Part shown: piece after piece, positions 1 through 54,254 of the stretch
Layout of the letters: each line of letters begins with the position of its first letter
Numbering within the stretch: position 1 is the stretch's first letter
DNA from: Nostoc carneum NIES-2107
GTDB taxonomy: Bacteria; Cyanobacteriota; Cyanobacteriia; Cyanobacteriales; Nostocaceae
DNA length: 64,000 bases
NCBI GenBank assembly: GCA_002368155.1
Contig: AP018180.1
Location: 4,797,007-4,861,006, forward strand
Reading direction: 5' to 3'
Made by a program: the position numbers and the translations under genes
The notes under the pieces: model-generated
What the model saw: only the letters and a program-made list of their open reading frames with translations
Databases searched by the model: none
What the model was told of the DNA's origin: nothing

Positions 1-635
1 CTAATGAAATTATGGATAATATGTGATGGGCAAGCTTTGTTGTGGAAAGAATGATTAAACACAAAACTGCCGCCTGGTTTCAGGATACGGAATATCTCAG
101 CTAATAAGTTTCTTAATTGTGCATCTGGTATATGCATAAAAACACAATTAGAAATTACTAAATCCACAGAATTATCTGCTAACGGTAAGATTTCTGCTGA
201 GTTACAAATTATATTAAATTCCGCACCTGGGAAAAAATCGTATTCTTGTTTTACTTTAATTAATCTTCTGAGTAAAGGTTCGGAAATATCAATAGCATAA
301 TATTTTTCACATCTCAGATTTTTATCTTTTGAAAGGTGTAATGGAGCGCGTCCATAACCACAACCAATTTCTAGAATAGAACCAACAGACTTATTCTCAG
401 GAAATTTATTCCATGTGCCGCCTGGTTTACCACCTAGCAAAGTGTAATCTTGTTTAATAGCTGATGTTGCAGCACCCTGCTCAATTTTTTGAGAACCATA
501 ATAAGTCTTACCAATTGCATCCCATTTCTGTTTATGTTCAGTGCTATTTAACTGTTCATAATTTTTGGGAAAATAAATACCATCCCGCAACTGAAAGTCA
601 CTTAGGCTATTTCTAGATTTTTCTAGTTGAGTCAT
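1..635 (-). CDS. SAM-dependent methyltransferase, 3' end cut by window edge
   Basis: An open frame runs from an ATG at 635 leftward off the window (211 codons visible). Class I methyltransferase signs are clear: motif I ILEIGCGYGRA at about residues 87-97, the acidic loop YAIDIS near 113-118, LPLADNSVDLVISN near 150-163 and the post-core LKPGGSFVF near 185-193. The enzyme would transfer a methyl group from S-adenosylmethionine; the substrate cannot be told. About 85 residues precede the fold. It diverges from the FAD oxidoreductase gene at 941. Family is sure, function is not. Confidence 0.85.
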   Translation of the reverse strand, partial: MTQLEKSRNSLSDFQLRDGIYFPKNYEQLNSTEHKQKWDAIGKTYYGSQKIEQGAATSAIKQDYTLLGGKPGGTWNKFPENKSVGSILEIGCGYGRAPLHLSKDKNLRCEKYYAIDISEPLLRRLIKVKQEYDFFPGAEFNIICNSAEILPLADNSVDLVISNCVFMHIPDAQLRNLLAEIFRILKPGGSFVFNHSFHNKACPSHIIHNFI

Positions 636-50281: not shown

Positions 50282-50383
50282 AGTACCAAATTGAAAAAAG
50301 AATGCGACAGACTGTAGGGGCAAGGCACTGCCTTGCCCTCTAGAATATATTGATGTATCGCCAAAATTATTTGATTTGGTATT
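50282..50383. repeat. MITE-like palindromic repeat, copy 2
   Basis: Ends AGTACCAAATTGAAAAAAG and CAAAATTATTTGATTTGGTATT are imperfect inverted repeats related to the copy at 47381. The centre GGGCAAGGCACTGCCTTGCCC is a strong hairpin. It fills exactly the gap between two convergent genes, from the decarboxylase stop to the dnaE stop, and may serve as a shared terminator. Confidence 0.78.
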
Positions 50384-53300
50384 ACTCCGGTAAATGGGGA
50401 ACTTGCAAAAAATCTAATCCTCGTTCAAAAATTTCATCAATGGGTAACATTTGACCATCAGTAGTCATAAATTTATGGTCTTTTGTTGCCCGAATAATCG
50501 CACCATCTTCTAAAGCATATTCAAAAACTTCTTGTTTACCGCGATTATGCCACTGTGCTATCGGTTGAGTATAAACATTACCATTATCATCAACACTATA
50601 AACCCTGCATTCCAGGCGTTTTTCTACAATTTCGCCAATAGGAATTAAGCCATATTCTACCGTTAAAACTTCTGTATCATAGCTTAAGCAATATTCGGCG
50701 AACTTCAACATATCGTCAAATAATTTCTCAGCTACTTGCTTTTTCACCCCATTTTTAGTTGCACCATCAATAAACTTTTCTTGCTGCTTTTGCATCTCCG
50801 AAACTTTCTTTTTACCCATTGCGCGCCGCAGCAAGTCAGCTTGTCCTAGGGAATATCCAGCCATATCTTGAGCAATTTTCATAATTTGCTCTTGATAGAC
50901 CATAATGCCATATGTTTCATTTAATATCGGTTCTAAAATCACACTTTCATAATCAATTGCTTCCCGTCCGTGTTTACGGTTAATAAACTTAGGAATTAGC
51001 CCTGCATCTAATGGGCCGGGTCGATACAGTGCCAAAATAGAAGAAATATCCTCAATATTAGAAGGTTTTAAATCGCGTACTATCTGTTTCATCCCAGAGG
51101 ATTCTAACTGAAATACTCCTTCTAATTCTCCTGCTTCTAATAATTCATAAGCCTTTTGTACATCTTTAGGTAAAGTACTATGCTCACCTTTAGCTAATAT
51201 TCTTTGAGCTTTTCTTTCTTGACCTGTAATTTCATCTGGATCAACACGATAACCTTTGGTTTCTTCAATCAAATCCAAAGTTTTTTGAATTAGAGTTAAG
51301 TTCCGCAGACCCAAGAAGTCCATTTTTAACAAACCCATTGATTCCAGGTCTTCCATGAAATACTGGGTAATTACAGAACCATCGTTATTTCTTTGTAACG
51401 GTACAATTTCATCAAGCGGATCGGCAGAAATTACCACACCTGCAGCGTGAACACCAAAGGTTTTGTTTGTACCTTCAATTCGCATCGCCATATCAATCCA
51501 GTGGCGAACTTGCTCATCATTATCATATCTGGCTTTAAATTCTGGTTCTGGGGTGTCATCAGAAATCATCACTTTTAACTTAGTTGGTTTCCCCCGCACC
51601 ACAGGAATTAATTTTGCCATTTTATCTGCTTCCCCGTAGGGAATATTTAATACTCTGGCTACATCCTTTAATACAGCTTTGGAAGTTAAACGGTTAAAGG
51701 TAATAATTTGAGCAACTTTATCAGCGCCATATTTCTCAGTTACATATTCAATAACTTTATCTCTTTTTTCAATGCAGAAATCCGTATCAATATCAGGCAT
51801 GGATTTCCGTTCTGGATTTAAGAACCGCTCAAATAGTAGCCCATGATGTACGGGGTCAATGTTAGTAATTCGCATGGCATAGGCGACTAATGAACCTGCG
51901 GCTGAATTATGGATAGCAATTGAGTTTCCTATATAGGAAGTATCCCCTGGGACAGTAATATCATAAACATAACCATGATAGTTTAATGTCTTGATATCTT
52001 TTATTTTGAGATAAATATAATTATCATCTACATAAAAACTATCATTCCTGTAAAACTTTTGAGTTTTGATACCTATAGGAAAATCGATAAAGTCACTATT
52101 CCAATTTAGCAGTTGTTTTCCTGCTAACTTTACCGAATACTCTGTAGACCAATGAGCTTTTTGTGTACGCCTTTTAATGATAGAAGCCCAGTAGCCGAAA
52201 CGTGCTAGTAGTAGTCTTAATTGTGAGGCTAAGTTGCTAGAGGTGGTTGTATATTTTAAACTGATAGTTTTAGCTTTTGTCCCTGGATGACCATCTCCTC
52301 GCAAAAGATAGGCAATTAAAATTTTGAGATATTCTGACTTGCCTTTGGTCACAATGTCACTATGTATATGCTTATTGTTAGCACCTTTACCACATAAAGC
52401 GGCTAAAAATTCTCCCACTATTCTGGAATAACAGATAACTTGTATCGAGTACTTTTTCGGATGCGGGAATATCTTACTTTCTAAACCAAAAACTTTATTG
52501 ATAAGGCTGCAAATTTCCTGGCCATAATTCATCTCATCTTTGGATAATCCGAAACCAACAGCACACTCTCTTTCTCCAAGTCTTGACCATCCTTCGGCAA
52601 TATAATAACCAAGAATTTTGGCAAGGTCTGCATTAAATGATATATATCGAGGAATTTTCTTGGTTATTAAATGATTTGTTCCTATTTCATACCAGATAAA
52701 TTCCTGATCAAATTTCAAATGAGATTTGATTTCTACAAAATTAACTAGGTCAAAGACAATATCTTGTTCAGTAGATTTAACTCTGGGAAAGACAACAAAA
52801 TCATTCTTTCTTAGCTTTCCTGCTGCTGTCCATTTTAATTGGTAATGCTGATAAGGTTTTTCCGAACAGTATCTAGTACAACTTGGTTTACAAACATTTG
52901 CCTGTTTGACACCCATAACAACACATTCATCAGTCTGAACTGCCCAGATTTTATGGTCTTTGGTTAAATATAATTCTTCATTAGCAACCTTAATTTTGAC
53001 GATTTCTTCATTACATGGATATTCATGTTTATGAGTAACAGGTAATATATTTCCTTGATGAGTAATTACCTGTTGCCCAACTTGAATATCTTTGATAAAT
53101 ATTTGTTCTCCGTGGGCAAGCATGACCTTAGTATCTGCCAGGACACATCCACGTCCAGGCCCCACAGGAATATTGTTATCTCTAGCAAATTTGATATAAT
53201 CCCAAACAACTAAAAAGTATTTGGAAAATCCCATTTGTTGAATCATTTTGAGTTCGTATTCCAACCTTTCTTTGTAGGTTGAATCGACTTCGTTGCGGGA

Positions 53301-54254
53301 TTTGCGATTTAATCTTTCTAAAAGTCCGTTCCATGCAACTTCTTCAGCGTAAGTATCAGCAGTATGACCAGAGGGAATTGGTGGAGTGGGAATTTGCGGC
53401 TCACCCATAATCTGGTATGGCTCAACTTTATCTGCTACTTCTTCAGTAGTCGCCACAGCTTCGGCAATTACATCATCTGGTAAATGGTCACGAAATAGCA
53501 GATGCATTTCTTCGGCAGATTTGAGATATTCTGTGCCGCTATAACGCATCCGATTTTCTTCAATTATCAGCTTCCCTGTTTGAATACATAATAAAGCATC
53601 GTGTGCTTCGACATCGTAACAAGAAATAAAATGCGAATCATTAGTAGCAACAAATTTAATGCCTAATTCCTTGGCAATTTTAATAATTTCTACATTAACA
53701 ATTCTGTCTTCTTGGGAACCGTGGTCTTGAATTTCTAAATAATAGTCATCACCAAATACATCTTTATACCATTGAGCAACTTTACGGGCTGCATCTGGTC
53801 TACCACTCATAATTGCTTGGGGAACTTCTCCTCCTAAACAAGCACTAGTAACAATCAAACCTTCATGATATTCTTTTAATAATTCTTTGTTGATGCAAGG
53901 GCGAGAAAAAATGCCTTTTCCTTGTACACCTTTGAGGTGAGAAATAGTAGTTAATTTGACTAAATTTTTGTAACCTTTAGTGTTTTTAGCTAAGACAACT
54001 TGATGATAACGGGGGCGGCGTTCTTGCTTTTCAATATCGCCATTAATGATATACATTTCGTTGCCAAGAATGGGTTTAATATTCTTGCTACGACAGATTT
54101 TGATCAATTCCACCGCGCCATACATCACACCATGATCGGTGAGGGCGATCGCTTTCATCCCCAGGGCGATCGCGCGGTCAACCAACTCTGGCAGCTGACT
54201 GGCACCATCAAGCAAGCTATAGTCACTGTGAATATGCAAAGGGACAAAGGACAT
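50382..54254 (-). CDS. dnaE: DNA polymerase III alpha subunit, N-terminal half, with two inteins
   Basis: 1290 aa from the ATG at 54254, which follows GGAG by 6 nt (a TTG 18 nt earlier is rejected). The PHP domain starts [11 protein letters not shown] with TDHGVMYG, and the polymerase catalytic Asps lie in MPDIDTDF. The extein is broken twice: a complete intein with homing endonuclease sits inside [17 protein letters not shown], and the protein ends in a split-intein N-half after KFAEY. The mature replicase subunit therefore needs one cis splice and one trans splice to a DnaE-C half encoded elsewhere. The split is standard in cyanobacteria; the extra intein is not. Confidence 0.95.
50385..50690 (-). 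other. Split intein N-half (DnaE-N intein)
   Basis: 102 residues from Cys ([19 protein letters not shown]) to the stop, with [15 protein letters not shown] as block B. It is very similar, residue by residue from memory, to the Nostoc punctiforme DnaE N-intein. The matching C-half gene is not in this window. Confidence 0.95.
51906..53147 (-). other. Complete intein with LAGLIDADG endonuclease inside dnaE
   Basis: 414 residues. Intein signs: Cys1 ([14 protein letters not shown]), block B LTKDHKIW with the conserved His, block [25 protein letters not shown], and Ser as the first extein residue. The endonuclease has both dodecapeptide motifs, [10 protein letters not shown] and [11 protein letters not shown], each with its acidic residue, so it may still be active. 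Removal joins GPGRG to SAAGSLV, a conserved polymerase segment. Confidence 0.95.

Follow-up and report, generated by a model that had tools for sequence, protein, structure and literature searches.

A LAGLIDADG intein alongside the split DnaE intein in dnaE-N of Nostoc carneum NIES-2107, probably a recent gain by homing

The dnaE-N gene, its two inteins and the trans partner

We analysed a stretch of 64,000 nucleotides from Nostoc carneum NIES-2107 (assembly GCA_002368155.1, contig AP018180.1, positions 4,797,007 to 4,861,006; hereafter the window), in which dnaE-N, the gene for the N-terminal part of the DNA polymerase III alpha subunit, carries an intein within its polymerase domain (the cis intein) and also ends in a split N-intein. 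The gene is a single open frame on the minus strand, running from an ATG at 54254 to a stop at 50382 (Table 1), and the cis intein is inserted at GPGRG^SAAGS. The encoded protein scored above the Pfam and NCBIfam model cut-offs for PHP, DNA_pol3_alpha (in two pieces), the finger domain, Intein_splicing, LAGLIDADG_3 and the intein N- and C-terminal regions. The G+C content is 34.0% in the cis intein versus 38.8% in the exteins. A preliminary description of this DNA, made from its letters alone, had given the coordinates and lengths of the gene, a 414-residue intein and a 102-residue N-intein; these proved exact, and we add the strand. The Cys1, terminal His-Asn, +1 Ser, both LAGLIDADG motifs and the insertion site that it named were likewise recovered by frame translation and family models.

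Table 1. Features of dnaE-N and its inteins, in window coordinates
Feature	Position	Strand	Basis and remarks
dnaE-N, N-terminal part of DNA polymerase III alpha subunit, with cis intein and split N-intein	50382..54254	(-)	stop 50384..50382; frame translation, Pfam, NCBIfam
N-extein, 369 aa, PHP domain and start of polymerase domain, ends GPGRG	53148..54254	(-)	translation, Pfam
cis intein, 414 aa, Cys1 to His413-Asn414	51906..53147	(-)	translation, Pfam, NCBIfam, structure model
LAGLIDADG homing-endonuclease domain of cis intein, ~residues 170-357	52077..52640	(-)	Pfam LAGLIDADG_3; model aligned to I-DmoI over 169..356
E185, catalytic-acid position, first LAGLIDADG motif (LGYYIAEG)	52593..52595	(-)	invariant in 16/16 copies
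D285, catalytic-acid position, second LAGLIDADG motif (IAYLLRGDG)	52293..52295	(-)	invariant in 16/16 copies and all 29 rows of wider alignment
+1 Ser of C-extein (SAAGS)	51903..51905	(-)	translation
Middle extein, 405 aa, rest of polymerase domain and finger domain, up to FAEY	50691..51905	(-)	translation, Pfam
Split DnaE N-intein, 102 aa	50385..50690	(-)	translation, NCBIfam; partner outside window

The residues used in splicing are present in the cis intein: Cys1, a TxxH motif (T62, H65), the terminal His413-Asn414 and the +1 Ser. It matches Pfam Intein_splicing at 61.9 bits (cut-off 35.8) and LAGLIDADG_3 at 37.9 (cut-off 22.5), as well as NCBIfam intein_Nterm at 71.6 (cut-off 24.5) and intein_Cterm at 27.6 (cut-off 15.6), and its two endonuclease motifs read LGYYIAEGW (E185) and IAYLLRGDG (D285). 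A structure model with a predicted local distance difference test score (pLDDT) of 87.7 has both the Hint splicing fold and the two-repeat LAGLIDADG endonuclease fold, and its predicted LAGLIDADG helices (residues 173-185 and 271-285) hold E185 and D285. An earlier prediction from 16 close rows was poor (pLDDT 58.9) and was set aside. The structures closest to the model are TliVMA (7qsu) and PI-PkoII (2cw7); these and PI-SceI (1vde) have the same two-part fold over the full length, yet differ in sequence (16-21% identity), in host protein and presumably in target site. On this modelled fold, the insert is most likely a bifunctional intein of the splicing and LAGLIDADG type; its endonuclease domain looks intact, and cutting activity is predicted.

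A full-length DnaE family search of the same genome found the DnaE-C partner at G000:C1:4994028-4995266, ~143 kb away on the same (minus) strand and outside the window; a DNA pattern for the C-intein junction matched nothing, and the gene was recovered by the family search instead. Its frame of 449 residues opens with a C-intein that ends in ASN and is followed by CFN, the Cys being the +1 residue. DnaE-N thus ends in an N-intein and DnaE-C opens with a C-intein and Cys+1, as in the cyanobacterial split DnaE inteins. Ssp and Npu DnaE are split DnaE inteins of cyanobacteria, and the two halves found here look like that kind; the usual cyanobacterial gene differs in that 55 of 58 genomes have no intein at the cis site. 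The Ser that replaces the penultimate His of the C-intein agrees with what the accessible part of PMC5874633 says of cyanobacterial DnaE inteins. Since a DnaE-C with a C-intein is encoded in the same genome, a complete polymerase would need one cis and one trans splicing event, as the preliminary description had held, and the trans partner it called for is now located.

Directly past the dnaE-N stop lies a 25-base self-complementary element, GTAGGGGCAAGGCACTGCCTTGCCC (50314..50338). With the pattern taken from 50314..50338 itself and up to 3 mismatches allowed, no second copy was found within the window.

Conservation and distribution of the same-site intein

The dnaE-N gene was found by whole-protein search in 58 of 58 genomes (own included), and the insert in three: the genome studied here, a second member of its genus and a genome from another family. 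In the remaining 55, with rows examined singly, the two matched gene pieces adjoin and meet at the insertion point. Given a gene present throughout, an insert in three genomes and contiguous pieces at the site in 55, the insert is not a chance match. Both flanks align at ~95% with the locus of a close relative, G006, and the alignment breaks at 51906 and at 53155, the latter a few bases from the insertion point. Separately, short window stretches (at ~2.5, 27.6, 42.6 and 56.4 kb) were matched at non-collinear positions of the G006 locus, a hint of small dispersed repeats.

Counting our own genome, the cis intein occurs in 2 of 8 genomes of the genus and, at the same site, in 6 of 217 of the family. 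Four of the six intein-free genomes of the genus are 98-99% identical to the window's host protein; a third match in the genus, at 30% identity, is a different locus. In a draw of 388 genomes from the order, nine carry the intein at 65-72% identity, with two copies in G746, while ten weaker matches (26-30%) are other things. The one examined, in G597:C176, is a 26%-identical intein in another protein, by eye DNA methyltransferase-like, which it interrupts just past a DPPY-like motif. Among 386 genomes drawn from the phylum, the window's genome alone gave a high-identity match, the sole other match being 28% identical. The best relative of the cis intein is 86% identical to it; Nostoc sp. TH1S01 has a 414-aa intein at the same site, 85% identical and followed by the same split N-intein. 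The row NosTH1S01 was dropped before counting and taken as the same genome as G536, with which it shares identical intein residues and contig coordinates. A search of the own genome at a threshold of E 0.1 gave a single match, and no second copy related to the cis intein was found. Rarity of the insert, which the preliminary description had supposed, is borne out by these counts, and relatives at the same site show both states, with empty sites far commoner.

A site-spanning DnaE query matched 374 of the 388 order genomes. Eleven were read as interrupted or in pieces, calls made from the best E-value and match number per genome in the genome table; they comprise the nine carriers, G701 (a frame break with no insert) and G803 (a contig end). 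The 14 genomes lacking a match at E 1e-6 include the nearly complete G140 and G738, in which the site may be interrupted in some other way. Among the interrupted sites resolved in this draw (388 genomes, 14 unmatched), no other intein family was found at GPGRG^SAAGS. The assembly of G749, 78% complete, contains an empty dnaE as well as an invaded one, and more than one strain may be mixed in it. A phage or plasmid vector was also considered and rejected: no close relative was found in 50,697 phage records (22-26% identity in seven), in 72,556 plasmid records (one match, 23%) or in viral contigs scanned with two short peptide patterns (19-29% in 24 loci).

We aligned 16 copies from 15 genomes. 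All frames are open; Cys1, IAIHN and the +1 Ser are identical, and E185 and D285 never vary. The intein is 414 aa long in eight copies, 415 in six, 429 in G681 and 440 in G640. A split N-intein follows in 14 of the 16, judged from the sequence tail alone in G560 and G743; the exceptions are G749, whose contig ends too early, and G680 (G680:C40:164500-171000), whose DnaE is unsplit, with a frame of 1609 codons, and carries the same cis intein. The element is therefore not tied to the split gene. G628 differs in having a second cis intein: its DnaE-N (G628:C7:5124500-5131500) has three inteins, at GPGRG^SAAGS, at LLRR^CMGKKK and then the split N-intein. That second site is intein-free in G746 C308, where it reads LLRRCMGKKK, and in G640, G680 and G746 C122, with different wording; the Cys in G746 C308 may be the footprint of a lost intein or may predate an invasion. 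In G579:C32, a DnaE frame of 1636 codons, the GPGRG site is intact and a ~1.3-kb gap near the second site suggests an intein there.

These copies bear on whether the endonuclease has lost its activity and the intein persists passively, as a splicing element only, through vertical descent or recombination, a reading that we consider unlikely. The second motif, IAYLLRGDG, does stray from the canonical LAGLIDADG wording, but both catalytic acids are invariant in 16 of 16 copies, the GDG is kept in 15 distant inteins as well, and the modelled domain is complete. Across five Nostocaceae copies (10 pairs), the ratio of nonsynonymous to synonymous divergence (dN/dS) averaged 0.099 over the intein and 0.110 over its endonuclease part; it was 0.07 to 0.12 in the other intein parts and ~0.05 in the exteins, all of these being rough values because silent sites have diverged far (dS ~0.8). 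Judged by sequence, the endonuclease shows no sign of decay in the 16 copies, and members of this intein family as a rule keep an apparently intact one. It follows that intactness alone does not date the insertion. The preliminary description had taken the intact endonuclease to mark this case as unusual, and the pairing with a split N-intein to be uncommon; among carriers neither holds, as all 16 copies keep both acids and an open frame and 14 have both inteins.

Trees, flanking changes and the age of the insertion

The extein tree was built from 43 rows, 15 with the intein and 28 without, the latter a selection of the empty relatives found, comprising 25 from the 58-genome search and three others; G749 was left out of it and of the approximately unbiased (AU) test, its gene being cut by the contig end. 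The window's dnaE-N nests within a clade that also holds four relatives from its genus with an empty site, and its branch measures 0.0016 in this tree versus 0.086 in the intein tree. At least eight changes of intein state are required, seven of them forced by well-supported branches. Intein and extein topologies reject each other (AU p 2.5e-45 and 1.1e-5; 15 copies, LG+G4), and horizontal movement is therefore part of the history of this intein family. Patchy presence at one site is thus joined to an intein phylogeny unlike that of the hosts, as in a mobile intein.

Because the gene is nested among empty-site relatives that are 98-99% identical at the protein level, a recent horizontal gain by homing is favoured over old inheritance. 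The opposite account is an intein ancient in the family, inherited vertically here and lost precisely and repeatedly elsewhere. In the carriers compared, the inteins differ from one another at silent sites about as much as the exteins do, and the deepest division of the intein tree broadly tracks host groups, both of which would suit great age. Against this, an intein at the midpoint root with no regain would need 16 precise losses on the sampled tree, several of them among the relatives of 98-99% identity, and the conflicting topologies also count against it, so we judge it improbable. The preliminary description had suggested a recent invasion, and the nesting, tree conflict and patchy presence lean the same way. 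It had also named an outcome that would mark the intein as old and fixed, namely presence in nearly all relatives with degenerate motifs; the opposite was seen, with few carriers and intact motifs.

The bases beside the site were compared as well. We counted 18 private changes in the window's gene relative to four close sisters with an empty site. Positions -1 and +2 of the site account for two of them; the sisters have 0, 0, 0 and 1 within 30 bases. These two of 18 fall within -10..+21 (permutation p 0.019, for an interval chosen after seeing the data). By Fisher tests that ignore relatedness, A at -1 was found in 5/6 carriers versus 4/25 empties (p 0.004), C at +5 in 5/6 versus 2/25 (p 0.0007) and A at +8 in 5/6 versus 6/25 (p 0.013). 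The 25 empties are a part of the family's empties, drawn from the 27 empty family loci of the 58-genome search without G033 and G029. At -1, +5 and +8 the window's bases resemble those of Nostoc carriers.

Several observations weigh against a recent gain. The co-conversion signal beside the site is weak and its counts small, the intein-free sister G006 has eight private changes within 150 bases versus five here, and the empty relative G032 has the same bases at +5 and +8; a co-conversion tract is thus a weak sign of recent homing at most. Judged by eye, most of the conflict between the trees comes from carriers outside Nostocaceae. Inside Nostocaceae the intein tree has little resolution (bootstrap 42 and 59), and the genus and family searches found no near-identical donor, the best intein relative being the 86% one.

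Proposed mechanism, known systems and significance

We give a probability of about 0.86 to a joint reading in which a bifunctional intein splices in cis before the halves are joined in trans, homes by its endonuclease and was gained recently. We observed the make-up of the gene, its DnaE-C partner, the invariance of the catalytic positions, the fold in the model, a patchy spread over genomes, a place among empty-site relatives and conflicting trees; from these we infer splicing, cutting, homing and donor. After translation, Cys1 would form a thioester at the N-terminal end of the cis intein, Ser+1 would take over the chain and Asn414 would cyclise, excising the intein. The split N-intein would then pair with the C-intein on DnaE-C and the halves would be joined into the full-length polymerase. 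The endonuclease would cut intein-free dnaE alleles at the site, and repair from the invaded copy would spread the intein; a donor outside the sampled genomes, probably a member of this family, would have passed it to the window's lineage recently. That the host instead uses the double insertion for regulation, the two splicing events jointly setting replicase amount, is very improbable: conditional splicing is in print for some inteins (PMC6195587, in its accessible part), but nothing points to it here, carriers are few and scattered, and near relatives do without the cis intein.

The inteins designated 'Ter' are presumably those of Trichodesmium erythraeum, an organism that a 2003 paper by Liu and Yang reportedly treats. 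In the portion of PMC3620165 available, Ter DnaE-1 and DnaE-2 are named as contiguous inteins whose endonuclease sequences are complete or partial, and DnaE-3 as a natural split intein. The window's gene resembles this set in joining a contiguous, endonuclease-bearing intein to a natural split one, and differs in having one contiguous intein rather than two; the likeness is one of architecture, apart from insertion sites and sequences. With Ter DnaE-1 to -3 in print, the dnaE-N architecture is of a known kind. The combination that the preliminary description had called uncommon is so in the rarity of the insert (6/217, 9/388), but it is not new in print. Our literature search, whose coverage excludes most subscription journals, found no paper on a cis DnaE intein at GPGRG^SAAGS. 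Excerpts of other papers describe a preference of inteins for conserved sites of their hosts (PMC2814812), a homing cycle of invasion, decay and loss (PMC7765530), and invasion with co-conversion of neighbouring inteins (PMC10643990).

The cis intein is a clean, well-supported new member of a class of mobile elements already known, and what is known of inteins is unchanged by it. It is possible, at somewhat less than even odds, that the intein is homing now: in living Nostocaceae its endonuclease would then cut the codons that surround the polymerase active site, an invaded dnaE would convert the other copies in cells with many chromosome copies, and the genus would hold a natural pair of invaded and empty sisters in which to watch the invasion of a split essential gene. 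The locus is of moderate use as a natural system for such homing, and homing, host cost and the order of cis versus trans splicing in one essential enzyme are directly testable in the genus.
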